Source of the DNA: Flavobacteriaceae bacterium
Lineage (GTDB): Bacteria; Bacteroidota; Bacteroidia; Flavobacteriales; Flavobacteriaceae
Assembly: GCA_016764435.1 (NCBI GenBank)
Contig: JAESRX010000063.1
Coordinates: 32,232-96,231 of the forward strand
Direction: 5' to 3'
Length of the DNA: 64,000 nucleotides
The notes below the pieces were generated by a model. The model ran no database searches, was not told the origin of the DNA, and worked only from the letters and a program-made list of their open reading frames with translations. The position numbers were made by a program, and so were the translations under genes. Shown here one piece after another: positions 15,646 through 58,680 of the stretch (the stretch's first letter is position 1; each line of letters starts with the position of its first letter).

Positions 15646-17166
<1,521 letters not shown>

Positions 17167-23371: not shown

Positions 23372-26300
23372 ATGAAAAAGATATTAATAATATTTAAGGA
23401 TATGAAGTTTGTGAAATTGCTTGCATTTTTATGTGTTTATATTTGTTTGAACCCTATTACTTTAACCGCTCAGACGGCAGTGCCTTTTGAAATTAGGTAT
23501 AATTCTAAACTCAGAGGTGAGTTAACTTTAATTTCGAATAGTATTGTAAACAGGGACAATGGTCCTGGAGAGACATCTAATGATCCTTATAATGGTGGCA
23601 ATTCGAATGATTGGTCCAATATGAAATATATTGATGTAGACGATGATCCTACTACTTTTTCATCCAGTAAATCAAATTTAGTAATCGCTAATCAGGACTG
23701 TATAAATATAAAATATGCAGGCTTATACTGGGGCGCTATTTATCAAGATGAGGAACGAAACCCAGCGTATACAAGTGTAAAATTTAAACTTCCAGGGGTT
23801 GGGGATTATCATGATATTAATGCGGATACCATTATTTTTGATGATCAAGATACGTATTACCCAGATCCGTATGCTTGTTTTGCAGATGTGACAGCTTTAG
23901 TACAGACATTAGAATCTCCTGTTGGTGAATATACTGTGGCAAATATTTTTGCAAATCAAGGGAAATCAGGTGAAGGAAGTCCTTATGGAGGTTCTTCTGG
24001 AGGTTGGACCTTGGTAATCGTTTACGAAGACCCAATGCTTAGTAATAAAAATGTGACAATTTTTGATGGCTTCTCGGGTGTAGAAAAAGGAGTTGCAGCA
24101 AGTGTTTCTGTTTCTGGATTTACAACCATTCCTAAAGGTCCTGTAAATGCGCGTATTGGAGTTTCTTGTTTAGAGGGGGAAATTCAGTTAAAAGGAGATA
24201 AATACGAGATAAGTACGGGGGCTAATTACCCGAATTTTACAGCATTGTCTGATGCTGAAAATCCTTCAGATAACTTTTTTAATAGTTCCATTACTATTGA
24301 TGGATCTCATTACTTAGATAGAGTTCCTAATAGTATTAATAATTTAGGTTGGGATACAGACCTGTTTCAGGTTTTTAATCCTTCAAATTTAGTCATAGGA
24401 AATCAAGAAACATCCGCCACGTTACGCCTCGAAACGGTTCAAGATAGGTATTATGTGTTCTATACTTCATTTTCAGTGGAAATAATAGAGCCACAAATAA
24501 CGGTATTGAAGACCGTTGATGATGGGACTAATGATTTGGAAGGGTCTGATGTTGTCTTAGGACAGCGTCTTTGGTATCAGTTGAGATTTCAGAATACAGG
24601 AAATGATGATGCCATCAATATGACCATGGTAGATACTCTTCCTATTAATGTTGACCTCGATGAATCGTCCATGGTATTGCCTCCTGGTGTAACTTATACA
24701 TACATACAACCCACAGGATTGAGTGGAGGTATCTTAACATTTACAATCCCTAATGAGATTGTAACTAAAGGCGCTACGTATTATGACATTCGCTTTAAAG
24801 TCGCTATTTCTGATGAATGTAATGACTTACGGGATGCTTGTGAAAATAGAATAGAAAATATTTCCTATTCTTATTATACCGGAAAGGATAGTGGAACAGA
24901 GATAAGTGATGATCCTAGTTTTTACGGATTGGATGCTTGTAATTTTGGAATTACAGGATCTACTAATTTTTTAGTAGATGTGAACGCATGTACTTTTGAT
25001 AGAAATGAAGTGATGTGTGGTTCGTCCCTTGATTTAACAGCAGGTAGTGATTTTATTGCCTATGTTTGGAAGGATGCTTCAGGGAATATAATAGGAGATA
25101 CTCAAACGATAACGGTTACAAATATAGGTGTATATACAGTTGATAAAACAGCAGCTGCACCTTGTGTAAATGCAAAAGAAACGATTACAGTAGTCCCTTT
25201 TGGAGAACAGACAAATCCATTGATTAGCCCAGATGGTAGTGGAGGTTATTTGTATGTAGATGAGGTTCTTGTTTGTCCAAATGACGGACGTAAATTATCG
25301 GAAATATACTTATGTGGGACAGATGATTCTCGGGATATTGTCACCAATATTGCGGGAGCAGAAGCGATTAAATGGCAGAAATTATCGGAAGAACAAGAAG
25401 GGAATGCCTATCCAAACTGTCCTAATACCGAAGGAAGTAGTGTGTGGACTACCGTAGATTCAACCAATAATTTTAAGGTGGTAGCCGCGGGAGAATATCG
25501 ATTGGAACTTGTTTTTCCTGGGGGTTGTTTTGTTCGGTATTATTTTAATGTATTTAAATCTACCGTAGAACCTGCTATTTCTAAAAAGAATATCAATTGT
25601 GGAAAAGAGGGGTTTATCGCTATTTATAATATCGATACTTCTTTGTATGAATTCAGTGTTGTTTTAGAAGGGCAACCTGCAGGAAATTTTACGAGTCAAC
25701 ACACATATCCTATTAATGTAGCAGGTGATTATACCGTGTATTTTCGTCAAATAGGAGTGAGTTTATCCGCGTGTGTTCCTAAAATTGAAAGCATTCATAT
25801 TTCTGAAAAAACGATACATACCACCATCACAGCATCTCCTATTTTATGCGAGACGGGTAAAGGGGCTATTCGTGTTCAAGTAAATGATGTTCCTGGAGAT
25901 TACCTGATGGAATTACAAACCATGGCTGGAGAAGTTATAGGGAATTATGGACCAAGTCCTCTAAATGATAATTTGTTCGATAATTTGGATGCAGGATTCT
26001 ACCAAGTGATTGTTACAACTCCGGAGTGTTCTGATCGTATTGAAAATATTGAAATAAAACCACCAGTTCCATTAGAATTTACAGCGGCACTGGCTCAGAG
26101 TATTACGTGTATCGATGGAATTATTAAAGTGAATTCTTCGGGAGGTCTAGTACCTCATTACTATGCCATTCATAGTTATATCTTAGAAGGAACAGCTACA
26201 TGGACCGTAATTTCTTCGTCAGAATATAAGTATCAAACAAACCAACTGTTTGATATTAGTAACCCTGGGGTTTATAGGTTTATTATGGTTGATAGTAATT

Positions 26301-29300: not shown

Positions 29301-32300
29301 CAGATGATTGGCATCAGTATACGGTTTCTTTGAATCCTGGGTTAATTACTGATTTGAATATTGTGATACGAACAGATGCGGGAGTGACTGAAGGGAATGA
29401 CATTGCGATAGATGCTATTATTGCTTATCAAGAACCAGATCAATGTGCTACAGAAACTTCCGTAACCTTTACTGTAGAGGACGCTAAAGAATTTAAGGCG
29501 GTCACTAATAGTATTGAGGAAACGACCTGTAATGGGGGAACTGACGGAGGTATAGCGATTGAACTGAGTAATTTTAATCCAACCTATGGATATAAATATC
29601 GTATAGATGGACTAGGAGATTGGATAGGACCTAAGTTTTCGAATTTACTAACTGTTGATGGATTGACTTCTGGGAGTCATAGCATAGAAATCGTCTATTT
29701 GAATATTGATGGATCTCAGGACTGTAAGAAAACCATTACCGAAATTATAGGGGAGCCTTCTGCAGTGGTTGTAAGTGCGGGTATTAAAGTAAATCTAACC
29801 TGTAGAAATATTAGCACTACGCAAGCAACGATTGAAGCAAGTGCTGTAGGTGGGTCAGGTCCTTATCAGTATCAATTAGAAACGGTAGCAGGACTGGTGT
29901 TAACAAGCTTTCAAAAATCACCGTTCTTTACAAATCTAGCGGCAGGATCTTATATGGTCCGAGCGAGAGATGTTTTTGGATGTGAAGATCTAATTGCTGT
30001 TCCAGTAGAAGTATTGACTCCTAAGGAAATTGTATTTACAGCAGTACCAGGCGCTTGTTATCAAGGAGATTCTAAAGGAACTATTACGGTTTCAGTAGTG
30101 GATGGAAATGGAAATTATCAATTCAGTATCAATGGGAATGCATTTCAAGTGCCAACTCCTGTAACGTCCTTAAATTATACGTTTGAGAATTTAGTTTCAG
30201 GAACTTATGAAGTGTTGGTTAAAGACCAATACGGATGTATGGAAAGTGTTTCTGTAACTATAAATTCAGTCCTAAGAGCGAGGGCTTTATTAGTGAATGA
30301 TATAGATTGTATCGCACCTACAATGGGTGAAATAACAGTGGAAGCTTATGGTGGTGATGGAAGCTATAGTTATCAATGGTCAAAAGACGGTGGTGTTACT
30401 TGGAACAATTCGAACTTTGCAGGAAATAAATTTACAAACACCGCTGCGGGTACTTATGTTTTTAAAGTAACCGATGGGGCTAATTGTTCGGGATTGACTA
30501 AAAGTATTGTTCTTAGCCCAGCCGTTGCTCCAGAGTTTACTTTAACAGCGATAGATATTGCATGTAATGGAAATAGTACGGGAGAAATTTCAGTAAATAT
30601 TGATACCAATATAGGATTGCCTCCATATGCGGTTAGTGTACGTAATGTTCTTACAGGCATCGTATATGGAAGTCAAACAACAGGATTGCCAGGAGGTAAT
30701 TATGAAGTTACAGTGACAGATCTCAAAGGATGTTTTTCTAAAGAAGATATTACGATAGAAGAACCAAGTATTATAGATGGGAAGATTCAAAGTACCGATA
30801 TAAAATGTGAACATCCAGACGATGTTTTGGGAACAATATCCATAGATGCTGGAGGAACCGGAACGGCACCTTATACGTACCGTGTGTATAATAACGGACT
30901 TTTGTTTGATCAGACGGTAGATACTGCTCTTTTAGGAACTACGAGTTATACCTTTACAGGCTTGGAATTTGGGTTTTATAAAATTGTTATTCTTGATAGC
31001 AATGGTTGTGAAAATATTTCGGAGGTTACCATTGGAACTGCACCAAATATTCTAGTCACTCTAGCGAGTACTGCGACTTGTGCTACAGGAAGTATTAAAG
31101 TACAGGTAAATACCACGAGTGGTTCTTTAAGTACAGGGCCTTATTATTTTGCAATCTATCCAGTTGCTACTAGCCCTCCTTCGGGAGCGGGTTGGTTCGT
31201 AGGGGTACCAGGAGTCTTAGGTAATGGAGACCCTACAGAAGAGTATACTTTTAATGGCTTAAGTCCAGGGGTTAGGTATACATTTATGGTGTATAATGAC
31301 ACGACCAAGTGTTCTTACATCCAAGAAGCGGATGAATTAATAAGTCCGGTGTCTACCTTAGAATCTACCATTAATACGCTTACGAATGTTACTTGTACAG
31401 GCGGGTCTGATGGAATTGTTAATTTTACGATTTCAAATTATGAAGCTTCTGCTACGCAAGTAGATTATCAAATCTTCGAAACAATAACAATTAGTCCCGT
31501 TCCTGGACTGTCTGGGTCTTTCACAGGACTAGGAGGTGCTGATGCATCAGCAAGTCTATCGGGATTAGGATCAGGAGACTACTTTATACAATTTACAGAA
31601 GTGGATGGAGGAAACCCTGGATGTATTACAAGTTCGGAACCATTTTCAATTAAAGCGTCTGAAAATTTACTGGAAATAGAAGCTAAATCTACTAAAAATC
31701 AAACCTGTAATGACTTAGGGATTGTTACAGCAGTCGCTCGTTATGGAACAGGACCTTACACGTATAAAATACAATTAAGTACAGAATCAGACCCAACGGT
31801 TACAACGTGGGGGAGTAATAATACAACGGGGATATTTAAAGTGCCGGCTGGGACTTATAAGGTATTTGTCTTAGATGCTTTTAATTGTATTCAAGGAACG
31901 GATGAAGTTGTTGTAACAGTTGATAGTATACCTGAGATAACCTTTAGTATTAATGATGCTAGTTGTCCAAAAGAAGGAGCATTTGAAGTTACAGTTAGTC
32001 TACTTGTTGCGGGAGTTCCGCCGTATAGTATTCGTGTAAACGAAGGCCCTTTTCAACCCGTCTCTTTGCCTTTTACGATACTTAATTTAAGTTCAGGAAT
32101 AGATCAACTCATTGAAATACAAGACCAGAATGCTTGTGGAAGTGTTCAAGTATTTTCGATTGCACCACCGCTTGAATTTAATGCGGAGATTACTAAATTA
32201 CTAGATTGTTCTATTTCTCCTCATGCGGAGATTACTATTAGTGATATTGTAGGCTCTGGTAAATACACGTATGAAATTAATGGTGTGGCTATAGGTGCAA

Positions 32301-35300
32301 ACGACCTAATTGCAGGAACGGATTTAGAGCTTCCTATAACGGTTTGGACAGGTGCAAATATGGAAAGTGAGTATATAATTACAGTGACAGATACTCAAAC
32401 GAATTGCGCTGTTGTGAAATCATTATTTGTAGCCGATGCATTAAAACCTATAGTTGCTTCTTCTTTAGCTGTTCATGCATCATGTAAGGGAGCTGCTGAT
32501 GGAAGCATTTTTGTGACGGCAGTTGATAATGGCATTGGTCCATTTACATTTGCTATTACAGCACCAAGTGCAATAACACCGGATATAGTGAGCGATTATA
32601 CGGCGACCTTTAATAATCTACAAGGGACTGTCGATGGTATTAACTATACCGTTACGATCACTGCAGCAAATGGCTGTACTACAGAAAAAATAATTAAAAT
32701 TAAGGAACCTTCGCCTGTGAGTATTGATGCGGTGAATATAAGTCCGTTTGGATGTAGTGATGGGAATACCCCTGAAGCTGCAAATATCACAGTCTCCACT
32801 ATTACTGGAGGGAGCGGTGTATATCCTAGGGTGGTGTTTGTGAATTCAGATGGAGATGTCGTACAGGATGGAGGAAGTAATGTATTGAGTATTGTGTATA
32901 ATGTTGCTTCTAATACATATAGTGTTGCTATGGGAAGTACTTCTCCGGGGGTATTTACAATCCATGTTTATGACAGCAATGGATGTGAGGCAACGACCAC
33001 TGAAACGATTCTTCTTTTTGATCGAATTATAACGGCTTCTATTGCTATAAATGATGCTATTTCTTGTGTAAATGCAGGAGAGGATATTCAGCTGATAGTT
33101 GTTTCCTCTGGAGCTGATAATTCATTGTTTGAATTCTCTGATGATGCTGGATTGACATGGCAAGGAAGTCCTGTTTTTAATGATTTAGCAGTAGGGAATC
33201 ATCAATTTATTATTAGACATAAAATTACAAAATGTGAATTTCCTATGAGTCATGAAGTTTTCAATCCGAATGTCTTTACGCCGAAAGTAACGGTAGAAAG
33301 CCGTGTAGTTTGTAAAGGTTCTATTACTGGTGAAGTTACCTTTGAAATAGAAGATGCTACATATTTAGGTGGTTTCAATTGGGAAATTTTTGATACCAAA
33401 GGATCTTTGTCAGATGATAGTGATGATGTTTCTGTAGGTACAGGAGTTGAGTCGAGTAATGGACCAACAGATCCGATTTTTATAGGGGAAGGTTCGTATT
33501 ATGTACGCATTACCCAATACAATTTTCCGAATTGTAATAATCGATCTTATTTTACGGTGACAGCACCGGAAGAAGAATTATCGGGAAGCTATTTAAGCAA
33601 TGCCATTACGTGTAGTGGTGATGATGGTAGTATTCGAATTAAGGCTCAAGGAGGTTGGGAAAATTATGAGTATTATGTAGGAATAGGCGCTCCTAGTACT
33701 GAAAGTTGGACTGTCTCGAATTCCTTTGATGGATTGTCAGTAGGAACGTATCAAGTATGGATTAGAGATGTTTTAGGTTGTGAAAAACAAGTATTTCCAG
33801 ACGTAGTATTGGTGGACCCATCTCCTATTACCGCTTCGTTAATAGTGAAAAACTATAATTGTGAAGGATCTAATGGAGAAATTGAGGTAACGAATGTGTC
33901 TGGAGGTGAAGGGAAAAATTATAAGTACCAATTATTCTTAGACGGTGCCGCTGTAGGAGCAGCACAAATAAGTCCTGTTTTTACAGGTTTAGTTGCAGGT
34001 AATTATCATGTTGATATTACAGATTTTTGGTCTTGTACAGGAAGTACAGGGGGTACTATAACATTATATGATGTATTAGCGCCAACAATTGTTATTCAAA
34101 AAGAAATAGATTGTACAGGAGCTCCAGAAGGAGAATTAATCGTTTCGATGACGGGAGGATCAGGTGCTTTTAAATTTGTAATGACCTTACCTGATGGGAC
34201 TACTTTAACAAATACCACAGGTGTGTTTGATGATTTAGGACTTATAGGTATCTATACGATTCGTATTACAGATACTATTACTTTGTGTAGTTCTTCTATT
34301 GAAGAAACGTTGAAAAAACCTTCTACGGTGGTGTTATTACCTACATCTTGGACAGATGTAAAATGTAATGGAGGGAGTGATGGAACAATTACCATTAATC
34401 TAGCGCAACCGAGCACTGGTAGTAATGATGAACCTGTGTACACGTATGAAATTACAGGCCCCGTAAATGTAGGTCCTCAAAACAGTAATGTATTTAGTGG
34501 CTTGCCTTCGGGAATGTATACTGTAAAAGCCATTTCAGTAAAGGGATGTGAAGCCATTCAAAATAATATTGAAATCACAGAGCCTAGCTTATTGTCCGTA
34601 AAAGTTGTGGCGACCACATTTGGGTGTACTCCTGATAATTTGACCAATAGGGTTCAATTAACAGTGTCTGCAACTGGAGGAATACCTGATTATTTGTACA
34701 GTATAAATGGAGTTGATTTTACCAGTTCACCTATTTTTTACATAGTTGACACAGGGCTTGTTCAGAATATTACAGTTACAGTAAAGGATGCTAATGTATG
34801 TATTGCTAATTCGGGTTCTTTGACAATTAACCCTTTACTAGCTATTACAAAGGTTACAGTAGTACAAAAGAAACCTATTTCTTGTTTGAATCCAGAACAA
34901 GTAACGATTACAGTTCTAGGAGGATCCGGTAATTTCACCTTTGAATTACTGCCAGATGGTCCGAGTCAGGGACCGGTAGTAAGTGATACTGCAGATTTTG
35001 AGCTCCCTAGTGAAGGTAATTATACCTTTAAGGTTATTGATAATGATACGGGATGTTATTTTGTAGCAATGCCTTATGATGTGGCGCTCTATAATACCAT
35101 TACAGTAGAAGCAACGGCGACAGGTGCCGTTAAGTGTTTAGAGGATGCCAATGGGATATTGGAATTTAAAGTTCTTAATTATACGGGTAACTTCACCTGG
35201 TTTGTAAATGATTCTTCGGGTGCTGAAATAGTAACAGGTACGGGGAATACAATGAATAATCCAATAGTGGTACCTGGTTTAATTGCTGCAAATTATTCGG

Positions 35301-37588: not shown

Positions 37589-37606
37589 TAGTAAATAGAA
37601 AATTTT

Positions 37607-42320: not shown

Positions 42321-42326
42321 TATCTT

Positions 42327-44414: not shown

Positions 44415-44445
44415 GTATTGACTATTAACCTGACCCCTAATAATT

Positions 44446-47400
44446 ATGAAAAATATAGTTTCTTCCCCGAACTATGTGCACTATTCTAAAATAGTATTTT
44501 TTCTGACGTTTATACTTTGTATAAAATATTCAGGAATGCTTGCGCAAACCTCAGTTCCGTTTACGATCAGATATTCAGAGAAATTACGAGGTGATCTCAC
44601 CCTGATTTCTAATAATATTTTGAATAGAAATGAAGGAGCTGGAAGAAGTTCCAATGATCCTTATAATGGATACAGGACAAATGATGTATTCAATATGGGG
44701 TATATAGATGTTGATACTGATGCCTCCACATTTTCTTCGAGTAAAGCTACTTTAGATATTGCAAACAGCACCTGTTTAAATGTGAAATTTGCAGGGTTAT
44801 ATTGGGGAGCTATCTACAAGGAAGCAATAAGAGAAAAAGACTACAATCAAGTAAAATTTAAACTTCCTGGAGCTGCTAATTATATAGACATTATAGCAGA
44901 TGATGTTATTTTTGATACGCAAGGAACCTTCCATCCAGATCCTTATGCGTGTTTTGCGGATGTTACAGGATATGTACAATCGTTGGGGTCTCCGGTAGGT
45001 GAATATACAGTGGCAAATGTACGTGCAAGTCTTGGATGGAGTGAAATGTATTTTGGTGGAACAGCCCCCTTAGGTGGTGCCTCAGCAGGGTGGACTTTAG
45101 TAATTGTTTATGAAGATCCATTAATATCTAATAAAAATGTAACCATATTTGATGGGTTTTCAGGGATAAATAAAGATATTGTTAATCCTGTAGATATTTA
45201 TGTTTCTGGGTTTACGGTGATTCCAACCGGGCCTGTAAAAGCACGTATTGGAGTTTCTTGTTTAGAGGGAGATCGTGGTTTAGGAGGAGATAGTTATAGT
45301 ATTAGTTCTGATGGAAATAACCCTGTATTTAGGGTGCTTTCAGATGCTGTAAATATAGAGACTAATTTTTTTAATAGCTCTATTTCTATTGATGGTACAC
45401 ACGTTGTAAATAAAGTCCCAAATAGTATTAATAACCTAGGTTGGGATACGGATTTGTTCGAAGTGAATAACCCTGCAAATTCTGTAATTGGAAACGATGA
45501 AACTGCCGCCACACTACGCCTGCAGACCAATAAAGATTCTTATTTTGTTTTTCAAACTTCTTTCGCAATAGAAATTATAGAACCTAAAATTACCGTTATC
45601 AAAACGGTGGATGATGGTGCATCAAGTCTTGCTGGGGCAAATGTTACCCTAGGGGATAGTATGTGGTACCAATTGAGGTTTCAAAACACTGGAAATGACA
45701 GCGCTACTAATACTACGATAAAAGATTTATTACCTATTAATGTAGACCTAGATGAATCTTCCATAATTCTACCTTGGGGGGTCAATTATACTTATATAGC
45801 TCCAACAGCTACTTCCGGTGGAATTATAATGTTTACAATAGATGATTCAATTGTTACTAAAGGGGCCACTTTTTACGATATTCGATTTAAAGTGACGGTT
45901 ACAGATCAATGTAATGACTTGAGAGATGCTTGTGAGAATAGGATAGAAAATGTTGCATTTGCTTACTATACGGGACTGGATAGTGGTACTCAAATTAGTG
46001 ATGACCCTAGTTTTTATGGATTAGATAATTGTGATTTTGGCCTTTCTGGAGCTACTAATTTTTTAGTGGACGTGGCTGGATGTACCTTTGAAAGAACGGA
46101 AGTAATATGTGGGGATTCCTTAGATATAACAGCAGGAAATGGATTTGTGGCTTATGAATGGAAAAATGCAGCCGGAATAGTTGTAGGAAATTCTAAAACA
46201 CTAACTGTCACTAATCAAGGAGTGTACACTGTTTATAAAACGGCCAATGCTCCCTGTGTAGACGCAACAGAAACAGTGATTGTTGTTCCTTTTGGTATTC
46301 AAAAAAATCCATTAATTAGCCAAGATGGAGGTGGAGATTATAAGTATGTGGATGCCGTGAAAATTTGTCCTAATGATGGACGGGAATTATCGGAAATATA
46401 TTTGTGTGGAACGGATGATTATCGTGTTATTGTTACCAATATAGCGAGTGCTAATCAGATCTTATGGGAGAAGTTGGATCCTTTAGAAGAAGGAACCTCT
46501 GATGTGAACTGTCCTAATACCACTATCACCAGTAAATGGACTACTATAGACACAACGAATAATTTTACTGCGGATACAGCAGGAGAATATCGCTTGAGAA
46601 TTGTATATCCTGGAGGGTGTTTTAGTAACTATTACTTTAATGTATTTAAGTCTACTGTACAGCCTATTATCGTTAATAAAAATATAAACTGTGGGAATGA
46701 TGGTATGATTACTATCAATAATATAGATGCTTCCTTATACGAATTTAGTGTAGTATTGGATGGACAACCCGCAGGTTTTTTTAGTAGTGTAAATTCCTAC
46801 CCTATTTCTGTGCCTGGGAATTACACGGTATATTTTAGAACTATTGGAGCGCTTCCAACTGCATGTGTCCCGAAAATTGAAGGGATTGTTATTGCAACAA
46901 AAACGATAAGCACCATTATCTCAGTGAACCATATTCTATGTCCTACGGACACGGGTGGAATTCGTGTTCAAGTGAATAATGTCCCAGGGGATTATCAAAT
47001 AGAATTGCATACCATGGCCGGTGCTCTGATAGGAACTTATGGTCCAGATCCATTGAATGATTATTTATTCGATAATTTGGCTGGAGGATATTATCGTGTT
47101 AGAGTAACAACCCCAGAATGTACGGAGGTAATTACGGATATTCAAGTGAAAGCCGAGCTTCCATTACAATTAACGGCAGTGGTTTCACAAAATATAACAT
47201 GTAAGGAAGGAAACATTCAGATGAGTTCTTCTGGAGGACAAACACCACATAACTATGCGATTCATAGTTATAAATTAAAGGACGATGCTTTTTGGACCAT
47301 TATAAACCCAGTAGATTATGCCTATCAATCCAGTCAAATCTTTGATATCCCTACCGTTAATGGTGCTGGGGAATATAGATATGTAGTAGTGGATAGAAAC

Positions 47401-50400
47401 TTGTGTACTGCAGTGTCTAATATTGTTAAGATAACACTTGAATTGGATGTGGATTATACAATTGACACCACGGATATCGCCTGTTTTGGTGATAGTACAG
47501 GAGTCATTTCATTTGTACTAAACGATAAATCAAAAAACTTAAGTTATGCCCTAGATGATGGCATTCCTGGGAATGGTTTTTTAGATGCGATTATAGCGGG
47601 AAGTGATCCTACGGATTATGACCTAACTGCTTTTAATACCTCAGGTGTTTTTACAAATCTGCCAGCAGGAACGTATACTTTAATCATTAAGAGAGGGAAT
47701 AATAGTAAGGCTTGTTTTTATCCGAAAACTGTTGTGCTGACGGAACCGATAGACCCTTTAACAGGAACATTAGCAGCTTCACAGCCTCTAACGTGTAATC
47801 AACTGGGTGAGGTGACCGTTGACGCTATCGGAGGAACACCTCCGTATCAATACGCTATCGATGGAATAAATTTTGTAAATACAAATGTATTTACAGGATT
47901 GTTTAGTGGATCTAATACGGTGACTATCATAGACGCGAATGGATGTATTACGACTACAAATGCGGTCGTATTTGATGTCTTGAATAAACCTACAGATCTT
48001 AGCATTACAACAACTCAAATAACCTGTCCTAGTTTAAGTTCAGACCTAACAGTGGCCTCAGTTATTGGAGGAACGTTACCTTTTGTTTATGAGATTATAG
48101 CTCCTGCGGGGGCGGTTGTTAACAATGGGAATGATCCTGTATTTACGAATCTATCCGTAGGTACGTATCGCATAAAAGTAACGGATGCATTAGGCTGTAG
48201 TTATGAAGAGGATTATACCATAATACCTGTTTCAGAAATTGCAATTGTAGGAATAGTAGATACTGAGGTTATTTGTAAAGGAACCGCTACAGGGAATGCT
48301 ACTTTTACGGTGAGTGGATTTACGACTTCTTATAGTTATTCGCTGAATGGAAACCCTGAAATAATTGGGAAAAATAGTACTTCTATTGTGTTGCCGAATC
48401 TGTTTACAGGGAATTATACCATTGTGATTACTGATGAAACAACCCTTTGTACAGACACCGCTACGGTGACCATTACTGAACCGGTACTGGCTTTAACAAT
48501 GAGTTTAACGGCAAGTCCAATTACCTGTAATACCAATGCTGCCATCACGGTAACGGCTAATGGAGGTTGGGGAGCTTTAGAGTATCAATTAGAAGATGCC
48601 GCCGGCGTAGTACTTACGGCTTATGGAACAACGAAGCTGTTTACAAATGTTCTAGCGGGTGATTATAGTGTTTTTGTAAGAGATGCGAATGGTTGTGTCC
48701 TTCAAGAAAATATCACCATAGATGCTGTAGTCGTTCCAACGATCAGTATCGTGGCCTCTACAGAATGTTTTACATCAACAGGGAATATTAGCATCACAGC
48801 TACAGGAACCGGAACGGCTCCATTACAATATGCCTTAAATGGTGGTAACTATCAAAATGGCAATGTGTTTTCCAATATTTTACCAGGAAATCATTCTATA
48901 ACAGTAAAAGATATGTATGGTTGTGAAGCCACGTCGAATGTGATTACTGTTTTTAATGAGCTTACGTTGAGTACTCAGTTTTCAAGTATAAATGGCTGTA
49001 TGAATACTACAGATGTAACGATCACTGCTTATGGAGGTGATGGCGTATATACCTATACTATTCTCCCGACAGGGGTGCTTCCAACTCCAGGAGATTATGT
49101 AGCCACAGCTATTATTACCCTAAATGCACCGGGTGATTATGTGGTGTATGTAAAGGATGGTAAAGGATGTGAAACCTTTGAAACCATTACGGTTTTAAAA
49201 GATCCTCCATTAACGATTACCGCGTCTAGTACCCCTATTTTATGTAATGGAGATCTAAGTGTTATCACAGTGATTGCTGGGGGTGGGCAAGCTCCTTATG
49301 AATACCAATTAGAAGATGTTTTAGGAGCTGTCATCACAAATTATCAAGCAAGCCCTGTTTTTAATAACTTACCAGTTAAAGATTATGTTGTAAGAGTAAA
49401 GGATGCAAGAGACTGTGAGGTCTTTGTAACTGTAATTATTTCAGAGCCTGATTATTTGTTAGCCTCTGCAGGTGTTACGGAACTTGTATCTTGTAATAAT
49501 GATATGGATGCAGAAGTTCGCATTACAAATGCGCAAGGAGGAACTCCTTTTCCAATTCCAAATTTATACCGCTATAGTTTTGACGGAGGTCTCACATATA
49601 CGACGTCTAATATTTCAAATTTACCTTCAGGAACACATACGGTGTATGTACAAGATGCGAATGGATGTACTTTTTCCATGGAAGTTATTGTAGCAGCAAA
49701 GATAACGGCGCCAGACTATATGCCAAGTCTTACCTATGATTGTGATGGAAATGGAATTTATACGGTTACTGCTGTAGATCCAATACCATTATATAGTTAT
49801 ACCTTTAATATAGATGGAGGTGCTGCTGTACCTGCGGATATTACAGTGCCTACTTATGGAGGACCTACAGGAATTTCTTTCCCAAATATTCCTGTTGGAA
49901 CGCATACTGTAACTATGAATTTCACCCCCTTAGCTACGCCTACTAAAAGTGTACTGCTAGAGGAGTCTTTTGGGATTGGTGCAAACACATCTATTTCTAA
50001 TATTGACCCAGTATATTGTTATGAACCACAGGACGGAACTGGTGGATGTTTTTTTGGGCCAGCTATTAATGATGGAGAGTATAGTGTCACACAAAAAGTA
50101 GCCTTTCCTTTTGGTTCTTGGCGCAATCCAAACGATCATTCTGGAATGGTTAATGGCCGGTTTTTAGCCATAAATGTGGGAGGAGCCGCTGGTACTACAG
50201 GTATTATTTATGAAAAAGAAGTCAAAGATATTATTCCGAATAGAGACATCACCATATCCTTATACGCTTTCAATTTATTAAGACAAGGATCTGGCGGAGG
50301 AGACCCTTCCATTAATGTACAATTAGTGGATTCTTTTGGTACCGTTTTAGCAACGTCACCTGTATCACCAGTAATCCCTAAAAATACAAATGCGGATGAT

Positions 50401-53400
50401 TGGCACGAGTTTAAAATAACGTTAAATCCGGGAGCAAATACAAATTTAAGTATTGTAATTCGAACAAATTCAGCCGTAATTATGGGGAACGATATCGCTA
50501 TAGATGATATCTTTGCTTTCCAAGAACCGGAACAATGTCCAAGTACTACAGCAATGACTTTTACTGTAGAAGCAGGGAAGGAATTTAAAGTGATGACAAC
50601 GACAGTTACAGATGTTACTTGTAACGGAGGGAGTGACGGAAGCATAAGTGTTCAAGTCAGTAATTTTGATCCAGTTTTAGGGTATCAATTCAGTACAGAT
50701 GGTGGTACCACTTGGAGTGCTTCTCAGTTAGCTAATATAATCACTGTAAACGGACTCAATGCAGGATCACATGCTATAGAAATCGCCTATATTACAGATG
50801 GTTTAGGGACAAGAGATTGTGCGAAAACGCTTACTGAAATTATTGGAGAACCGACAGCTGTACTTGCAAGTGCAAGTATTATAGAAAAATTGACATGTAC
50901 GAATGCAGGAGCTACTATTACGGCAAGTGCTATAGGTGGAGGAGGTTCTTATGAATATCAATTAGAAGATACGGCAGGGCTTCCTATCGTAGCCTTTAAA
51001 ACGTCTCCTGTTTTTGAAAATCTAATGGCAGGATCTTATATCATTAGAGTAAGAGATGTATTCGGATGTGAAGATGTTATAGATGTACAAATTGATATTG
51101 AATTACCTACACCTATTTTATATACAACTACTCAAACCAATTGTTATACAGGATATGGGAATGGAAGTATCACGGTGAATGTTACCGCAGGAAATGGAAA
51201 TTATCAGTTTGGTATAAATGGGAGTGCTTTTCAAACACCAAGCCCAGCTACTGGAACTAGTTATACTTTTTTAAACTTAATTTCAGGGAATTACACCATT
51301 GCAATACGTGATCAATTTGATTGTTCCGTTACTTCGGTAGTAACGATAGATTCTCAATTAATAGGAGCCGCTATATTAGTAAATGATATTGATTGTAATG
51401 TACCTACCAATGGTGAAATTTTAATAAATGCCAATGGTGGAGCTGGAGGAAACACTTATGAATGGTCTAATGATGGTGGAGGAATTTGGAATGCGAGTAA
51501 TTTTGTAGGAAATTTGTTTACCATTGGAATAGCGGGGGATTATATTTTTAAAATAACCGATGCTTCTGCTTGTTTTGTAATCACCAATCCGATTACCTTA
51601 ACTCCTGCGATCAATCCTGATTTTACACTCCTTGCAACGGATATCAAATGTAACGGAGACCTCAGTGGAGTGATTGATATTACGATTGATGTAACTAAAG
51701 GCTTAGCTCCATACACTACAAATATAATTAATACAACAAGTGCTACGGGCTATGGAACACAAACAACAGGATTGCCAGCTGGTGATTATGAGGTTACTAT
51801 AACCGATGCCAAAGGCTGTTCAACTACAAATTTAGTTTCCATTATAGAACCCACAGCAATCAACGGGAATATCTCTAAAATTGATATTTCTTGTGCGAAT
51901 CCATTCGATGTAAAGGGAGTCATATCTGTTGATGCCGGTGGAACTGGAACCGGTCCTTATACTTACCAAGTGTATAACAATGATTACTCTTTTAACCAAA
52001 CAATAGATACTGCCGTACTAGGGCTTACTAATTATACCTTTACAAGTTTAGATTTTGGGCAGTATAAAGTGGTGATTATTGATGCAAATGGTTGTGAAAG
52101 TATTTCAGACATAACCATTGGTACATCTCCAGATATTTTAGTGACTATTGTAGGAGTAGCTACCTGTACTACGGGTAGTATTACTGTACAAGCAAATACA
52201 ACCAGTGGCTCCTTGAGTACAGGGCCTTATTATTTTGCTATTTATCCTATTGCAACTCCTGCTCCGCTTGGTTTCGGTTGGTTTCCTGGAGTAGCGGGAG
52301 TTCTGGCTAGTGGGGCCGCTACAGAAGAATACACTTTTAACGGATTAACACCAGGAGTTACCTATACATTTGTAGTGTATGACGATAGTACAAAATGCAC
52401 CTATATTCAAGAAGCAGATAAATTAATAAACCCTATTTCCACATTAAAATCAACGATTGATACAATAACAGATATTACATGTACTGGGGCTTCAGACGGT
52501 AGGGTAGATTTTACCATTTTTAATTATGAAGCAACAGCTACTCAAGTAGATTATCAAGTATTTCAAACCATTACTATCAATCCAATTTTGGGACAATCAG
52601 GTTCTTTTATTGGACTGACAGGAATACCTGCATCTGATACTTTAACGGGATTTGCTCCAGGTGAATATTTTATTCAATATACAGAAGTCGATGGAGGGAA
52701 CCCAGGCTGTATTACGACATCTGAACCGTTTTTAATCCAACAATCACCTACATTATTAGAAATTACGGCAAGTCTTACTAAAAATGAAAACTGTAACGAA
52801 TTAGGAATAATCACTGCATTAGCGCAATACGGAACGGCTCCTTACGATTATCAAATACAAGCAGCTACGGATGCTGATCCAACCATAGGAACATGGCTTG
52901 GAGGAAACGCTACTGGTATTTTTAATGTGGTTGCGGGTGACTATAAAGTGTTCGTAAAAGATGCCTTAAATTGTATTCAGGGAATTCCTATACTGTTAAC
53001 TGTTCCATTAGATCCATCTCCAGCGATTACGGCGACAGCAGATTATACGGCCTGTCCAGGAGAAGGAAATTTCAGTGTAAATATTACTCTTGATACGGCG
53101 GGGGTTCCTCCGTATAGTATTCAGATTAATGGAGGTGCGAGTCAGGTGATTACGGATCCATTTGATACCTTAACTCCAATCGTAATAACAGGACTTAATT
53201 CCGGCGTAAATACATTTCAAATTACAGATAGTAATGGTTGTAGTGAAGCTGCGGCAGACGTAATAACTATTGTAGCGCCACTTGAGTTTAATGCGAGCAT
53301 CACTAAATTATTAGATTGTTCTGTAGCTCCAAATGCGACCATAACACTTCGGGATGTTATAGGTTCGGGTAATTATACATATCAAATTGATAATTTAGAT

Positions 53401-56400
53401 ACCGCTACTAATTATGTGCTTGCAGGTACAGTACTTCCAGCCCTTCCATTTGATTGGAACGGGGCAGATGTTAGTGGAGAATATGAAATTATAATCACAG
53501 ATACGGCTACTAATTGTACTGCTGTAAAATCAGTATTTATTGTAGCAGATTTAAACCCAATACTACTAACCGTACCTACCACGGTAGATGCCTTGTGTAG
53601 TGGAAGTAATGATGGAAGCATCCGTATTACTGCTCAAGACAATGGTATTGGTCCATTTACATTTTCTATTACAGCACCTTTGCCAATAGTAGCTACTTCA
53701 AACAACGGATTCACCGCTACTTTTGAAAATTTACCAGGCAGCGTTTTAGGTACTAATTATACCATTACTATTACGGGGGCAAATGGATGTACAACGGATC
53801 AAATAGTGACTATTTTTGAACCTACTCCTGTGAGTATTGACCTTCTAACGACCACGCCTTTTGGCTGTACTATTGGGAATACGCCAAATGTTGCAAGTAT
53901 TACTGTGACTACGGTAAGTGGAGGGAATGGTTCTTATACTCGTTATGAATTTGTGAATTCTGATGGGATTACTGTCCAAGATGGTACAAATAATACATTG
54001 AATATTGCATACGATACAGGAACAGCTATTTATAGTGTCGCTATGGGCGCCACTACGCCAGGACTGTTTACTGTAAATGTTTATGATAGTAACGGATGTT
54101 TGGCTACAGATACAGAGACAATTCTTCTTTTTGATGAAATTAGCAATGCAAATATTACTGTTTTAGAAGCTATTTCTTGTGTGAATCTAGGGGAAGATAT
54201 TCAAATAGATGTTATTTCAACGGCAGGAGATCCTACACAGTTTGAGTTTTCTGATGATAATGGAATAACTTGGCAACTCTCCAATGTATTTAATGATCTA
54301 GCCGTAGGAACGCATAATTTTACAATCAGACATTTGATAACAGGATGTACCTATCCTCTAAGTTATACCGTAAACGAACCAAATACATTTACTCCAAAAG
54401 TGACCATTGTGAACCAAGTAATTTGTAAAGGTTCCACTAGCGGTACAGTTACTTTTGAATTGGAAGACACTACCTACCCAGGAGGATTTGATTGGGAGAT
54501 TTTTGACACCAAAGGAACCTTAGCAAACGATGCCGATGATACTTCTGTAGCTACAGGGAATATAGGAACTAATGGTCCAACGCTACCAGTGAACATTGGA
54601 GCCGGATCTTATTATGTAGTCATTACTCAAAATAATATCCCTACATGTAATAACCGTGTGTATTTTACCATTACAGAACCCATTATTGGATTGTCTGGGA
54701 CTTACACAAGTACTAATATTACTTGTATTGGGAATGATGGAACGCTTGTAATTACTCCAACTGGTGGTTGGGCTAACTATGAATATTATGTAGGTGTCGG
54801 CGCCCCAGGAATAGGCAGCTGGACTGTGTCGGATTCGTTTAATGGATTGGCAGTGGCTACTTATCAAGTATGGATTAAAGACATGTCGGGTTGTGAAATT
54901 CAATTGCCTGATGCCATTTTTACGGACCCAGTCCCAATTACTGGAACCTTGCAAATAAACAATGCAAATTGTACTGGGAATAATGGAGAAATAGAAGTAG
55001 TACTTGTAACAGGTGGACAAGGAACTAATTATCAATATCAATTAATTTTAAATGGAATTCCTATTGGAATTCCACAGTCTAGTCCTGTATTTACAGGATT
55101 GGGAGCAGGGAATTATGAGGTGGAAATTTCGGACCAATGGTCTTGTGTTTCGGTCATCCCAGCAGGAATATCTATCCTCTTTGAAACGTTACAACCAAGT
55201 GTTTCTATTGTAAAAGAAATAGACTGTACTGCAATTCCAGGAGGAGAAATTACTACGAGTGTTACCGGAGGGTCTGGGAATTACACGTATACGATAACCC
55301 AACCAGACGCCACGGTTATTCCAAGCGTTACTGGGATATTTGTAGGGTTAACGCAGGTAGGAGTGTATACGATTACTATTACAGATATTACGACAAATTG
55401 TACGGCTATGATTACGGAAACGTTAGTAGCACCTTCTAATGTATTCATAGATTCTTTAAATTTCACCGATGCTATATGTACTGGTGATGCGAACGGAACC
55501 ATCACCGTAAATTTAGCAGCAACGATTCCAGGAATTAATGACGAGCCACCTTATACCTATCAAATTACAGCACCTATTTTAGGAATAGCGCAAAGTAGTA
55601 ATGTATTTACTGGATTGGTAGCGGGCACGTATACAGTTCTTGTAACTTCTGTAAAAGGATGTACTGATACAAAAGACATAACGATTGGAGAACCCGTAGC
55701 GCTTTCTGTAGTTGCAATAACGGATACTTTTGTTTGTACTCCTACCAATATAACAGGCGTTGTCACCATTATAGCAAATGCTTCAGATGGTACACCAGGA
55801 TATTTATTTAGTATAGACGGCCTTAATTATACAGCCTCTACTACTTTTGAGATTGTTGATACAGGAGTGATTCAAAACATCACCCTATGGGTTAAAGATG
55901 CCAACGGCTGTACGGCAACAGCTACTGTTGCGATCAATCCATTACCTACAGTTACCGCCATTGCAGTGACTCAAAATACGGCCATTTCTTGTGTGAACCC
56001 TGAAAATGTAACCGTTACCGTTACAGGTGGCTCGGGAGATTTCACCTATGAATTGCTACCAATTGGAACAAATTCACAAAGTATTATTAGTCAGTCTGCA
56101 ACATTTGATTTGCCGTCAGTAGGGAGTTATACTTTTAAAGTAATTGATAATAGCACAGGATGTTTTGTGATGAGTATCCCTTATATCGTAGCTCCGTTTG
56201 ATACTATTGCAGTCACGGCTTTGTCGAGTACTCCTATCCAGTGTTTTGGAGATACTAATGGAAGTATCACTTTTGAAGTTCTAAATTATGGAGGTAATTA
56301 TACATGGGATGTTCTGGACGAATGGGGCCTAAGTATTGCCAATAATACAGGAAATGGAACTTTGAATCCTGTTGTGATTCCGAATGTTCCAGGAGGTAAT

Positions 56401-58680
56401 TACACCGTATATATAGTTGCTACGGATCCGGCTTTTTGTGATGCAACCAGTAATGTAATCACGATAGCATCACCGAGTACAGCTTTAACGGTGAACTTAA
56501 GTGTGAGCCATAAGGAGACATGTGATCCAGGTGATGATGGTGAAATTATTGCTTTGGGAGCTTTTGGATGGGGTTCTTATGAATACCAACTCTCACAAGG
56601 AGCAGTTATTTTACAAGCGTTTTCAAATGCAAATGTTTTTAAAGATTTAGATGCCGGAATGTATACCGTTACCGTAAAAGATGCGGCAGGTTGTGAATAT
56701 CCAGAGACTATTCAAATTATTGCACCGAATCCAATGACGGCAACGGCAACACCTAATACCTTAAGTTGTTTTGGTGATTTGGATGGTGAAATAACGGTTT
56801 TTGCCAATGGAGGACAAGGAATTGGAACATATTTATATAGTTTAATAAATGCAGTAGGGAATGCATCAGCGCTTCAAACCTCACCTGTATTTAATAACCT
56901 TGCAGCAGGGACTTATACCGTACTAGTTACAGATAATTTAAATTGTGAAGTGACTACTTTACCAGTTACTATCGTTGTTCCAGACCAGGTGATCGCAGCA
57001 GCGCGTCTGACCAATGTGCTGAGTTGTACTATGGATGCTATTATAGAAATTACCGCTTCAGGTGGAGATGGAGGTCCTTATACATATAGTGTAGACGGAG
57101 TCATTTTTAATGGAGTAAATACATTTAATTTAAACCCTGCAATCATTACTACCTATCAGTTCTTTGTCAGAGATGCTAGTGGATGTACGTCTGCTGTTTC
57201 CAATGGAATTACGGTGAGACCAGTACAGCCTTTAACAATAACGATTGATGGAATTAATGCCAATATCAGTTGTTTTGGTGGTAATAATGCCGTAATAGCA
57301 GCTGTTACTTCTGGAGGTATGGGGAATTATAAGTACGAGTTATTGGATGGCAATGATGTCCTGCTCGATGGCCCTCAAAATTCAAGTATTTTTACAGATT
57401 TAGCTTCCGGAATTTATAAAGTGAGAGTCTCTAGTTTGGACTGTTCAGAAATATCTACTCCTTTTGCAATAACGGACCCTAAACAACTCCAGTTAATTGC
57501 TCCTGCGAGTGTTATAAACATAAGTTGTTTTGGAGAAGAGGACGGAAAGATTACGGTGAATGCTGTTGGAGGAACAGGAAATCTTATTTATAGTATAGAT
57601 CAAAATAAATATGTGACGAATAACGTATTTGAAAACCTTGGTCCTGGAACATATACGGTGACGGTACAAGATCAAAATGGTTGTTATATCAATGAAAGAG
57701 TTACCATTCAGGAGCCTGCATTGTTAGTGATGACCTTTGGACTTATCAATCAAGAAAAATGTATAGATGATAAAGACGCAAGTATAGAAATAGTGATTAC
57801 AGGTGGAACGGCTCCTTATTTCACCAAATTAAATATAGACGGAGTTTTTGTACAAGGAAAATTAATATACGATAACTTATTAGGAGGTTCTACCTATGCT
57901 ATTTATATAGAAGATAGTGCTGGATGTACTCAAAATTTAGTGATTAAATTAGATCCTCCAGTGGATTTGAATTTTGGGACTACCATTGATTATGCCTGTG
58001 ATGGAAATATAAAAATTATTGCCTCCGTAGACGATGAATTTGAAAACGATGTTACCTATACCTTAGTGAGTGCTACCCAATCCTTTTCAAATACTACCGG
58101 TGTTTTTGAGAATTTAACGCCTGATACTTATTTGGCAGAAGCAGAACATACGAATGGGTGTATTCCTTCTCAATCTTTTGTAGAAGTTGTAGAAATGATT
58201 CCTGCAGAAGTAACTTTAGAAGAAACATTTGTAAATACAATTACGGCACATGTAACGTTCGGATTGCCTCCATTTCAATATAGAATAGATGGCGGTGAGT
58301 ATAGAAGTTCTAATGAATTTATTGTCAAGAAAACAGGAACCTATACCGTAGAAGTTAGAGATGCCAGAGGATGTATTTCTACAGCGGATATTTATATAGA
58401 GTTTATTACAGTATTTATTCCAAACTTCTTTACACCAGACGGAGATGGAACAAATGATTATTGGTATCCTCGTAAATTAATGGCATATCCTAATATTCAT
58501 GTCTCTGTATTCGATCGTTATTCTAGATTGATTATTGAATTTAGAGGGCCCCAAGTAGGATGGGATGGTAAATTAAATGGAACTGCACTTCCTTCAGGGG
58601 ATTACTGGTATGTAATAGACTTGGATGGATTGCAAGGTGATAAACGGAAGATGATGGGTAATTTTACACTGTATCGTTAA
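44446..58680 (+). CDS. sprB: Giant SprB-like gliding/surface adhesin with T9SS type B sorting domain, copy 2
   Basis: 4744 aa; collinear with copy 1 from N-terminus to CTD (C-terminal IPNFFTPDGDGTNDYWYPRKLMAYPNIHVSVFDRYSRLIIEF...GDYWYVIDLDGLQGDKRKMMGNFTLYR). Confidence 0.9.
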   Translation: MKNIVSSPNYVHYSKIVFFLTFILCIKYSGMLAQTSVPFTIRYSEKLRGDLTLISNNILNRNEGAGRSSNDPYNGYRTNDVFNMGYIDVDTDASTFSSSKATLDIANSTCLNVKFAGLYWGAIYKEAIREKDYNQVKFKLPGAANYIDIIADDVIFDTQGTFHPDPYACFADVTGYVQSLGSPVGEYTVANVRASLGWSEMYFGGTAPLGGASAGWTLVIVYEDPLISNKNVTIFDGFSGINKDIVNPVDIYVSGFTVIPTGPVKARIGVSCLEGDRGLGGDSYSISSDGNNPVFRVLSDAVNIETNFFNSSISIDGTHVVNKVPNSINNLGWDTDLFEVNNPANSVIGNDETAATLRLQTNKDSYFVFQTSFAIEIIEPKITVIKTVDDGASSLAGANVTLGDSMWYQLRFQNTGNDSATNTTIKDLLPINVDLDESSIILPWGVNYTYIAPTATSGGIIMFTIDDSIVTKGATFYDIRFKVTVTDQCNDLRDACENRIENVAFAYYTGLDSGTQISDDPSFYGLDNCDFGLSGATNFLVDVAGCTFERTEVICGDSLDITAGNGFVAYEWKNAAGIVVGNSKTLTVTNQGVYTVYKTANAPCVDATETVIVVPFGIQKNPLISQDGGGDYKYVDAVKICPNDGRELSEIYLCGTDDYRVIVTNIASANQILWEKLDPLEEGTSDVNCPNTTITSKWTTIDTTNNFTADTAGEYRLRIVYPGGCFSNYYFNVFKSTVQPIIVNKNINCGNDGMITINNIDASLYEFSVVLDGQPAGFFSSVNSYPISVPGNYTVYFRTIGALPTACVPKIEGIVIATKTISTIISVNHILCPTDTGGIRVQVNNVPGDYQIELHTMAGALIGTYGPDPLNDYLFDNLAGGYYRVRVTTPECTEVITDIQVKAELPLQLTAVVSQNITCKEGNIQMSSSGGQTPHNYAIHSYKLKDDAFWTIINPVDYAYQSSQIFDIPTVNGAGEYRYVVVDRNLCTAVSNIVKITLELDVDYTIDTTDIACFGDSTGVISFVLNDKSKNLSYALDDGIPGNGFLDAIIAGSDPTDYDLTAFNTSGVFTNLPAGTYTLIIKRGNNSKACFYPKTVVLTEPIDPLTGTLAASQPLTCNQLGEVTVDAIGGTPPYQYAIDGINFVNTNVFTGLFSGSNTVTIIDANGCITTTNAVVFDVLNKPTDLSITTTQITCPSLSSDLTVASVIGGTLPFVYEIIAPAGAVVNNGNDPVFTNLSVGTYRIKVTDALGCSYEEDYTIIPVSEIAIVGIVDTEVICKGTATGNATFTVSGFTTSYSYSLNGNPEIIGKNSTSIVLPNLFTGNYTIVITDETTLCTDTATVTITEPVLALTMSLTASPITCNTNAAITVTANGGWGALEYQLEDAAGVVLTAYGTTKLFTNVLAGDYSVFVRDANGCVLQENITIDAVVVPTISIVASTECFTSTGNISITATGTGTAPLQYALNGGNYQNGNVFSNILPGNHSITVKDMYGCEATSNVITVFNELTLSTQFSSINGCMNTTDVTITAYGGDGVYTYTILPTGVLPTPGDYVATAIITLNAPGDYVVYVKDGKGCETFETITVLKDPPLTITASSTPILCNGDLSVITVIAGGGQAPYEYQLEDVLGAVITNYQASPVFNNLPVKDYVVRVKDARDCEVFVTVIISEPDYLLASAGVTELVSCNNDMDAEVRITNAQGGTPFPIPNLYRYSFDGGLTYTTSNISNLPSGTHTVYVQDANGCTFSMEVIVAAKITAPDYMPSLTYDCDGNGIYTVTAVDPIPLYSYTFNIDGGAAVPADITVPTYGGPTGISFPNIPVGTHTVTMNFTPLATPTKSVLLEESFGIGANTSISNIDPVYCYEPQDGTGGCFFGPAINDGEYSVTQKVAFPFGSWRNPNDHSGMVNGRFLAINVGGAAGTTGIIYEKEVKDIIPNRDITISLYAFNLLRQGSGGGDPSINVQLVDSFGTVLATSPVSPVIPKNTNADDWHEFKITLNPGANTNLSIVIRTNSAVIMGNDIAIDDIFAFQEPEQCPSTTAMTFTVEAGKEFKVMTTTVTDVTCNGGSDGSISVQVSNFDPVLGYQFSTDGGTTWSASQLANIITVNGLNAGSHAIEIAYITDGLGTRDCAKTLTEIIGEPTAVLASASIIEKLTCTNAGATITASAIGGGGSYEYQLEDTAGLPIVAFKTSPVFENLMAGSYIIRVRDVFGCEDVIDVQIDIELPTPILYTTTQTNCYTGYGNGSITVNVTAGNGNYQFGINGSAFQTPSPATGTSYTFLNLISGNYTIAIRDQFDCSVTSVVTIDSQLIGAAILVNDIDCNVPTNGEILINANGGAGGNTYEWSNDGGGIWNASNFVGNLFTIGIAGDYIFKITDASACFVITNPITLTPAINPDFTLLATDIKCNGDLSGVIDITIDVTKGLAPYTTNIINTTSATGYGTQTTGLPAGDYEVTITDAKGCSTTNLVSIIEPTAINGNISKIDISCANPFDVKGVISVDAGGTGTGPYTYQVYNNDYSFNQTIDTAVLGLTNYTFTSLDFGQYKVVIIDANGCESISDITIGTSPDILVTIVGVATCTTGSITVQANTTSGSLSTGPYYFAIYPIATPAPLGFGWFPGVAGVLASGAATEEYTFNGLTPGVTYTFVVYDDSTKCTYIQEADKLINPISTLKSTIDTITDITCTGASDGRVDFTIFNYEATATQVDYQVFQTITINPILGQSGSFIGLTGIPASDTLTGFAPGEYFIQYTEVDGGNPGCITTSEPFLIQQSPTLLEITASLTKNENCNELGIITALAQYGTAPYDYQIQAATDADPTIGTWLGGNATGIFNVVAGDYKVFVKDALNCIQGIPILLTVPLDPSPAITATADYTACPGEGNFSVNITLDTAGVPPYSIQINGGASQVITDPFDTLTPIVITGLNSGVNTFQITDSNGCSEAAADVITIVAPLEFNASITKLLDCSVAPNATITLRDVIGSGNYTYQIDNLDTATNYVLAGTVLPALPFDWNGADVSGEYEIIITDTATNCTAVKSVFIVADLNPILLTVPTTVDALCSGSNDGSIRITAQDNGIGPFTFSITAPLPIVATSNNGFTATFENLPGSVLGTNYTITITGANGCTTDQIVTIFEPTPVSIDLLTTTPFGCTIGNTPNVASITVTTVSGGNGSYTRYEFVNSDGITVQDGTNNTLNIAYDTGTAIYSVAMGATTPGLFTVNVYDSNGCLATDTETILLFDEISNANITVLEAISCVNLGEDIQIDVISTAGDPTQFEFSDDNGITWQLSNVFNDLAVGTHNFTIRHLITGCTYPLSYTVNEPNTFTPKVTIVNQVICKGSTSGTVTFELEDTTYPGGFDWEIFDTKGTLANDADDTSVATGNIGTNGPTLPVNIGAGSYYVVITQNNIPTCNNRVYFTITEPIIGLSGTYTSTNITCIGNDGTLVITPTGGWANYEYYVGVGAPGIGSWTVSDSFNGLAVATYQVWIKDMSGCEIQLPDAIFTDPVPITGTLQINNANCTGNNGEIEVVLVTGGQGTNYQYQLILNGIPIGIPQSSPVFTGLGAGNYEVEISDQWSCVSVIPAGISILFETLQPSVSIVKEIDCTAIPGGEITTSVTGGSGNYTYTITQPDATVIPSVTGIFVGLTQVGVYTITITDITTNCTAMITETLVAPSNVFIDSLNFTDAICTGDANGTITVNLAATIPGINDEPPYTYQITAPILGIAQSSNVFTGLVAGTYTVLVTSVKGCTDTKDITIGEPVALSVVAITDTFVCTPTNITGVVTIIANASDGTPGYLFSIDGLNYTASTTFEIVDTGVIQNITLWVKDANGCTATATVAINPLPTVTAIAVTQNTAISCVNPENVTVTVTGGSGDFTYELLPIGTNSQSIISQSATFDLPSVGSYTFKVIDNSTGCFVMSIPYIVAPFDTIAVTALSSTPIQCFGDTNGSITFEVLNYGGNYTWDVLDEWGLSIANNTGNGTLNPVVIPNVPGGNYTVYIVATDPAFCDATSNVITIASPSTALTVNLSVSHKETCDPGDDGEIIALGAFGWGSYEYQLSQGAVILQAFSNANVFKDLDAGMYTVTVKDAAGCEYPETIQIIAPNPMTATATPNTLSCFGDLDGEITVFANGGQGIGTYLYSLINAVGNASALQTSPVFNNLAAGTYTVLVTDNLNCEVTTLPVTIVVPDQVIAAARLTNVLSCTMDAIIEITASGGDGGPYTYSVDGVIFNGVNTFNLNPAIITTYQFFVRDASGCTSAVSNGITVRPVQPLTITIDGINANISCFGGNNAVIAAVTSGGMGNYKYELLDGNDVLLDGPQNSSIFTDLASGIYKVRVSSLDCSEISTPFAITDPKQLQLIAPASVINISCFGEEDGKITVNAVGGTGNLIYSIDQNKYVTNNVFENLGPGTYTVTVQDQNGCYINERVTIQEPALLVMTFGLINQEKCIDDKDASIEIVITGGTAPYFTKLNIDGVFVQGKLIYDNLLGGSTYAIYIEDSAGCTQNLVIKLDPPVDLNFGTTIDYACDGNIKIIASVDDEFENDVTYTLVSATQSFSNTTGVFENLTPDTYLAEAEHTNGCIPSQSFVEVVEMIPAEVTLEETFVNTITAHVTFGLPPFQYRIDGGEYRSSNEFIVKKTGTYTVEVRDARGCISTADIYIEFITVFIPNFFTPDGDGTNDYWYPRKLMAYPNIHVSVFDRYSRLIIEFRGPQVGWDGKLNGTALPSGDYWYVIDLDGLQGDKRKMMGNFTLYR
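46675..58400 (+). repeat. Array of about 43 divergent SprB-type modules (copy 2)
   Basis: Same module pattern and order as copy 1; count by eye. Confidence 0.85.
49946..50538 (+). other. Non-SprB insertion domain inside SprB-like copy 2
   Basis: SVLLEESFGIGANTSISNIDPVYCYEPQDGTGGCFFGPAINDGEYSV...NGRFLAINVGGAAG...LSIVIRTNSAVIMGNDIAIDDIFAFQEPEQC; same position as in copy 1. Confidence 0.6.

Follow-up and report, generated by a model that had tools for sequence, protein, structure and literature searches.

SprB is the best-known adhesin of Bacteroidota gliding, and the protein, its repeats and its operon are already known. The published SprB of Flavobacterium johnsoniae has 6497 aa (PMC9870892), and SprB filaments were reported to be ~150 nm long (PMC13104615) or, in another paper, ~200 nm long (PMC12635249). 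The twin-cysteine C-x-C tail of SprF was reported to be invariant and to be needed for a disulfide to GldK (PMC12635249). Among solved structures, the one clear relative is the Aureispira grappling hook protein GhpA (PDB 9flp-9fly, 9g8b), a T9SS-secreted giant with related Ig-like modules. The GhpA monomer is described as spanning the whole filament, in a heptamer, and GhlA has 49 domains in ~180 nm (PMC13319060).

Two collinear SprB paralogs in tandem

We analyzed a 64,000-nucleotide stretch of DNA (the window) from contig C75 of a Flavobacteriaceae genome (G000), an assembly of 97 contigs that is 81% complete. Between atpD (15658-17166), the upstream flank, and an endonuclease/exonuclease/phosphatase gene (61035), the downstream flank, lie two operons in tandem, each ordered sprC-like, sprD-like, sprB, sprF, with all eight genes on the plus strand. 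The first operon consists of a sprC-like gene (18192..21179) encoding Ig_7 and CHU_C domains, a sprD-like gene (21188..23332) encoding a PorP/SprF barrel and a SPOR domain, sprB copy 1 (copy A; 23372..37588), which encodes 4738 aa from its ATG, and sprF (37607..38539), the carrier or anchor gene. The second consists of the sprC-like (39342..42320) and sprD-like (42327..44414) genes, each 48% identical to its counterpart, sprB copy 2 (copy B; 44446..58680; 4744 aa) and sprF (58699..59631). Both giant proteins contain an array of SprB repeats (PF13573; E 9e-72 and 1e-102), the module being ~85 aa long and Ig/FnIII-like, and a CHU_C type IX sorting domain at the C-terminal end (residues 4655-4733). 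A PorP/SprF-family carrier gene lies directly 3' of sprB, which gives the sprC-sprD-sprB-sprF operon order, and the position-specific central segment matched Flavobacterium SprB proteins as orthologs, one of them F. johnsoniae-sized. The source genome also encodes GldK. The two giant adhesins are paralogs, both of them SprB proteins from an sprCDBF operon that was duplicated in tandem. The same genome has a further SprB-repeat protein (L028, contig C50) with an open frame of 1572 aa, which gave the genome's best PF13573 matches, stronger than those of the window's copies.

The SprF tails of the window depart from the reported pattern. They end in RKCTY (copy 1) and RKCTQ (copy 2), so that each has a single cysteine (RKCT) in place of C-x-C, a motif that we found in 120 other SprF-like ORFs at the loci compared. 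The SprF proteins of three sister species (G001, G002 and G003) likewise have a single cysteine, in a terminal R-[KR]-C-T. The GldK cysteine seems to be kept in the source genome.

The sequence-only reading of this DNA had claimed that the two adhesins are collinear module by module, with ~43 modules in each copy kept in the same order. We segmented both arrays with an iterated module HMM grown from Pfam hits and obtained 44 modules in each copy. In the module tree that had been proposed as a check, the nearest relative of every copy 1 module was the copy 2 module at the same position (44/44), and modules did not cluster by protein of origin, which bears the claim out. Neighboring modules, said to be much less alike, are so: identity averaged 0.58 at the same position, 0.25 at other positions and 0.23 between neighbors. 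A global alignment of the copies gave 57% identity with 26 indels, none larger than 6 residues, in agreement with the view that the arrays were not shuffled; out-of-register shuffling between the copies was ruled out by the 44/44 pairing. The same was found when segmentation was avoided, as 205 of 206 80-aa windows of copy 1 matched copy 2 best at the collinear place, with a mean score of 210 compared with 41 at the best non-collinear place. The single SprB of the sister species G002 (4750 aa), used as an outside control for the suggested ortholog comparison, also paired 44/44, and with it included 43 of 44 position triplets were monophyletic in the module tree. The per-module dN/dS that had likewise been suggested gave pN below pS in every module, indicating purifying selection throughout (dN 0.35; dS 1.59, which is near saturation).

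The history of the duplication is tangled. Copy 1 is outermost in the sprB and sprF trees, yet it groups with G002 in the sprC and sprD trees. In the single operon of G002 (L003/L021), sprC and sprD resemble those of copy A, and sprF and the 3' part of sprB resemble those of copy B; this apparent mosaic is what would remain after a deletion between tandem copies. Elsewhere in the family, G065 (L140), G409 (L141), G074 (L125/L126) and G270 (L138/L139) also have sprB in tandem. In G065 and in G409 the central segments of the two copies have identical scores, a hint of gene conversion, and the tandem copies of G074 and G270 are of unlike size class.

Balanced arms and a seven-module unit

We gathered orthologs through a 433-aa central segment (A1) from the named genomes, the family and Flavobacterium; this segment had been picked as the ortholog marker before the arm rule described below was noticed. 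Modules were counted on each side of the central module of this segment, which carries the motif FAIYP, and the window copies have 43 canonical modules by this count because a degenerate first module before a gap of ~110 aa is omitted. In copy 1, an N-arm of 19 canonical modules (25583..31012) is followed by the central module (31067..31315) and a C-arm of 23 modules (31382..37285), the final four of which have no mirror partner. In copy 2, the N-arm (46675..52098; module index 0-18), the central module (52159..52401; index 19), which is the mirror axis of the array, and the C-arm (52462..58377; index 20-42) follow in the same way, so that both copies are 19/23, copy 2 after one spurious N-terminal hit was dropped. 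The N-arm also holds a non-module insert of ~230 aa (28808-29512 in copy 1; 49918-50601 in copy 2). In the window copies this insert follows the 13th canonical module; most other carriers have it exactly seven modules earlier, behind the 6th.

The relation between the two arms extends across the family. The comparison set held the window copies and 125 relatives, and in 121 of these 127 complete arrays the C-arm has four modules more than the N-arm (C = N + 4). The N/C classes were 9/13 (23 arrays), 12/16 (28), 19/23 (39), 26/30 (21), 33/37 (4), 40/44 (5) and 61/65 (1), with N = 5 + 7k in every balanced class except 9/13, and the canonical totals were mostly 23, 29, 43, 57, 71, 85 or 127, with a range of 23-127. 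Some classes are very stable in length, such as the 2732-2757 aa found in 23 arrays. The 33/37 class includes a 6497-aa SprB of 71 modules, and because this is the published size of F. johnsoniae SprB, the ortholog is almost certainly that protein. Ten arrays were corrected by hand before counting, for spurious or extra N-terminal hits (B, L034, L005, L006, L121, L122, L182 and L200) or for a module that had been missed and showed up as a double pitch (L188, L197 and L200), and L187, L055 and truncated arrays were omitted. Many of the genomes are drafts or MAGs, in which misassembly would be expected to unbalance the arms.

On a tree built from the central and C-terminal parts of SprB, we counted 46 changes in module number, of which 41 were equal in both arms and 5 were unequal; these are parsimony minima on the gene's own tree, where whole-gene transfer is a possible source of some changes. 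The equal changes included 16 of +7/+7, 10 of -7/-7 and 8 of 3/3. What is conserved is the balance C = N + 4 together with a step of seven modules, and not the number of modules.

The six exceptions fall into three groups. A clade of four arrays (L115, L119, L176 and L177) has N = 12 and C = 22 to 28, with the added modules close to the C-terminal base, in the region without a mirror partner, as a free stalk would allow. The N-arm-12 subtype also includes the truncated L180, L174 and G552 (L210/L211); its C-arm grows at the base by about three modules per step and reaches 64 or more, and the subtype is without the non-module insert. L125 (26/14), one of two tandem copies, has recent blocks in mirror placement and seems to have been shortened at its C-terminal end. 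L116 (19/16) makes up the third group.

The unit of seven is also visible inside single proteins. Within-protein module similarity in the 43-module class peaked at lag 7 (p 0.0002) and was raised at lags 14, 21 and 28, and in the 57-module class it was strong at lags 7 (p 0.0002) and 14. Near-identical seven-module units number about three per arm in the 71-module array, where they are ~99% identical in both arms, and five per arm in the 127-module array. Recent units occur in both arms of 16 arrays, the 71- and 127-module ones among them, and in all 16 the unit midpoints lay within two modules of mirror positions, in 12 of them within half a module; in L010, recent units are limited to the N-arm. 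Blocks in the middle of an arm would in part give mirror placement by themselves, and we therefore put more weight on the involvement of both arms and on G003. Recombinational exchange of units between the N-arm and the C-arm was considered unlikely, as these are only ~35% identical, in parallel register.

G003 belongs to the same genus and has a single operon at the same locus on one contig. There, the blocks corresponding to copy 2 index 7-13 (48508..50880) and index 25-31 (53848..55716), which are exact mirrors of each other about index 19, are each present twice (+7, +7). G003 has ambiguous bases, and for this count its frames were joined with X across two such runs, where one module of the second block is hidden. 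G001 has two copies of the first block in one contig and three of the second in another (C74). The duplications in G003 and G001 show that seven-module tandem duplication is still ongoing in the genus of the window, which includes both 43- and 57-module forms, and that the window pair has simply escaped it; their frozen appearance reflects the 19/23 size class, which both copies inherited and still share. A fixed module number was rejected, since sister species differ, and the earlier view that every module is held in place without expansion fails at G003. The related suggestion that module order or filament length may itself be the functional property came near the mark for length, in that arm balance is conserved, and not for a fixed number of modules.

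The two G001 contigs (L001/L002) carry different SprB versions, 72% identical in their overlap, one adjoining atpD and the other the downstream flank; they may come from another tandem pair or from a single gene of great length. Because the contigs differ in the overlap, the view of G001 as one gene in a three-way comparison was dropped.

A fold-back proposal and its rivals

If two arms lie side by side and antiparallel, modules at mirror positions should share deviations in evolutionary rate. On this rationale we calculated pairwise distances per module and correlated what remained of them once the mean across modules was subtracted. The mean along an antidiagonal was highest at i+j = 38 in the 19/23 class, 24 in the 12/16 class and 52 in the 26/30 class, each exactly twice the index of the central module. 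When 60% of the sequences were subsampled, this antidiagonal exceeded every parallel line in 99, 89 and 100% of the draws, respectively. After thinning to sequences more than 40% apart, the antidiagonal stayed in place in two of the three classes and moved to 55 in 26/30; the covariation was weak in the 9/13 class (17 vs. 18). A best-partner test supported mirror pairing in the 19/23 and 26/30 classes (0 of 2000 permutations), with a permutation null that is liberal in that it breaks autocorrelation, and did not support it in the 12/16 class (927 of 2000). In the 19/23 class the outermost N-arm modules pair with index 36 and not with the last four modules, and these four are without covariation partners.

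We propose that SprB is probably a hairpin that folds back on itself, with two antiparallel arms around a central tip and a four-module stalk. The turn would be at the central module, the N-arm and C-arm (19 and 23 modules in the window copies) would lie antiparallel to each other, and the four C-terminal modules, index 39-42 of copy 2 (57517-58377), would form a single-stranded stalk ending in the CHU_C domain held by SprF. The two-stranded rope would repeat every seven modules. Modules inserted in one arm only would stay unpaired and be lost by selection, insertions matched in both arms would survive, and this would be why copies 1 and 2 keep their register at 19/23. Filament length would evolve in quantized steps, each requiring both arms to grow or shrink by the same seven (or three) modules. 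We hold the fuller picture, in which antiparallel arms of seven-module repeats bring the N-terminus near the cell, the tip lies in mid-chain and length is quantized by matched steps, to be likely as well, if a little less surely so. The proposal starts from collinearity, balance, the unit of seven, matched duplications and mirror covariation, all of them observed; physical pairing of the arms, its occurrence within one chain and the role of seven modules as a rope repeat are what we infer.

The figures for GhlA correspond to ~3.7 nm per domain by our own estimate, and at this spacing 71 modules would measure ~260 nm extended and ~140 nm folded. The filament length of ~150 nm fits the folded chain, and that of ~200 nm counts against it. 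An AlphaFold2 model of the central 13 modules had a pLDDT of 82 and a pTM of 0.51. Foldseek and VIA-align gave matches to Ig/FnIII-like modules only, with fibronectin fragments on top (Z about 9.9). The filament-spanning description of the GhpA monomer in its heptamer and the six deviating arrays of 127 also speak against a hairpin, as do the weak covariation in the 9/13 class, the best-partner result in the 12/16 class and the ten module counts corrected by hand.

With the C-terminal end of SprB held by SprF, all chains within a filament should point the same way, and no mirror axis is expected from parallel pairing. This and the match of the ~150 nm filament to a folded chain make it unlikely that the arms pair between chains, in an antiparallel dimer or larger bundle about the same central module, even though mirror covariation and arm balance cannot separate pairing within a chain from pairing between chains and the nearest solved relative is a heptamer. 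Plain common descent, by which slow module turnover explains collinearity and no structural rule is needed, suffices for the window pair, as many ortholog pairs at 57-67% identity are without any indel of 30 aa or more and G002 pairs in full; as the whole explanation it is rather improbable, for it does not account for the matched-arm turnover (41 of 46 changes), the recent blocks in both arms or the mirror covariation.

Recombination centered on a conserved middle of the gene, with tracts of variable length, could also give mirror-like covariation, the arm balance then having another cause. The center of the array is indeed among the best-conserved parts between copies 1 and 2, and the A- and B-like sequence of G002 is mosaic-like. 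Tract ends that vary independently to the left and right should, however, give a broad block rather than a ridge reaching the outermost modules (0-36, 1-36, 5-33); the ridge stops at the stalk, and the matched duplications would stay unexplained, so that we regard this as very unlikely. We give the least credence to the view of the sequence-only reading that function constrains every single module as well as the number of modules: purifying selection acts on all modules and some size classes are stable, but a single genus holds forms of two sizes, the family runs from 23 to 127 modules, and G003 contradicts it. The hairpin is the reading that we prefer. It would explain how a protein of ~6500 aa forms a filament near 150 nm, and the mirror rule, read from genomes, predicts the fold of SprB and places its tip at a named module. 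If true, sprB would also be a rarity among genes, with two separate repeat arrays kept at equal copy number by selection.

Comparison with known systems

In the part of the SprB literature that we covered, we found no description of balanced arms, seven-module unit, hairpin or fold-back, and the two-arm rule is new as far as that literature was searchable. The window shares with F. johnsoniae SprB the gene order, the PF13573 repeats, the CHU_C type B sorting domain and the adjacent sprF, and the arm rule also holds in the F. johnsoniae-sized ortholog, whose arms have 33 and 37 modules. It differs in having two tandem operons and proteins of ~4740 aa with 19/23 modules, and its one-cysteine SprF tails differ from the C-x-C reported as invariant.

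GhpA matched SprB modules by profile (E 1.9e-36) and by fold (E 5e-22); among PDB sequences only the profile picked it up, and copy 2 alone gave no match. It differs in that its monomer is described as filament-spanning within a heptamer. Higher-order repeats, for example those of alpha satellite arrays, consist of a multi-module unit repeated as a block. SprB resembles alpha satellite arrays in its near-identical block copies within long arrays, and differs from them in having two separate protein-coding arrays within a single gene that remain equal in copy number.
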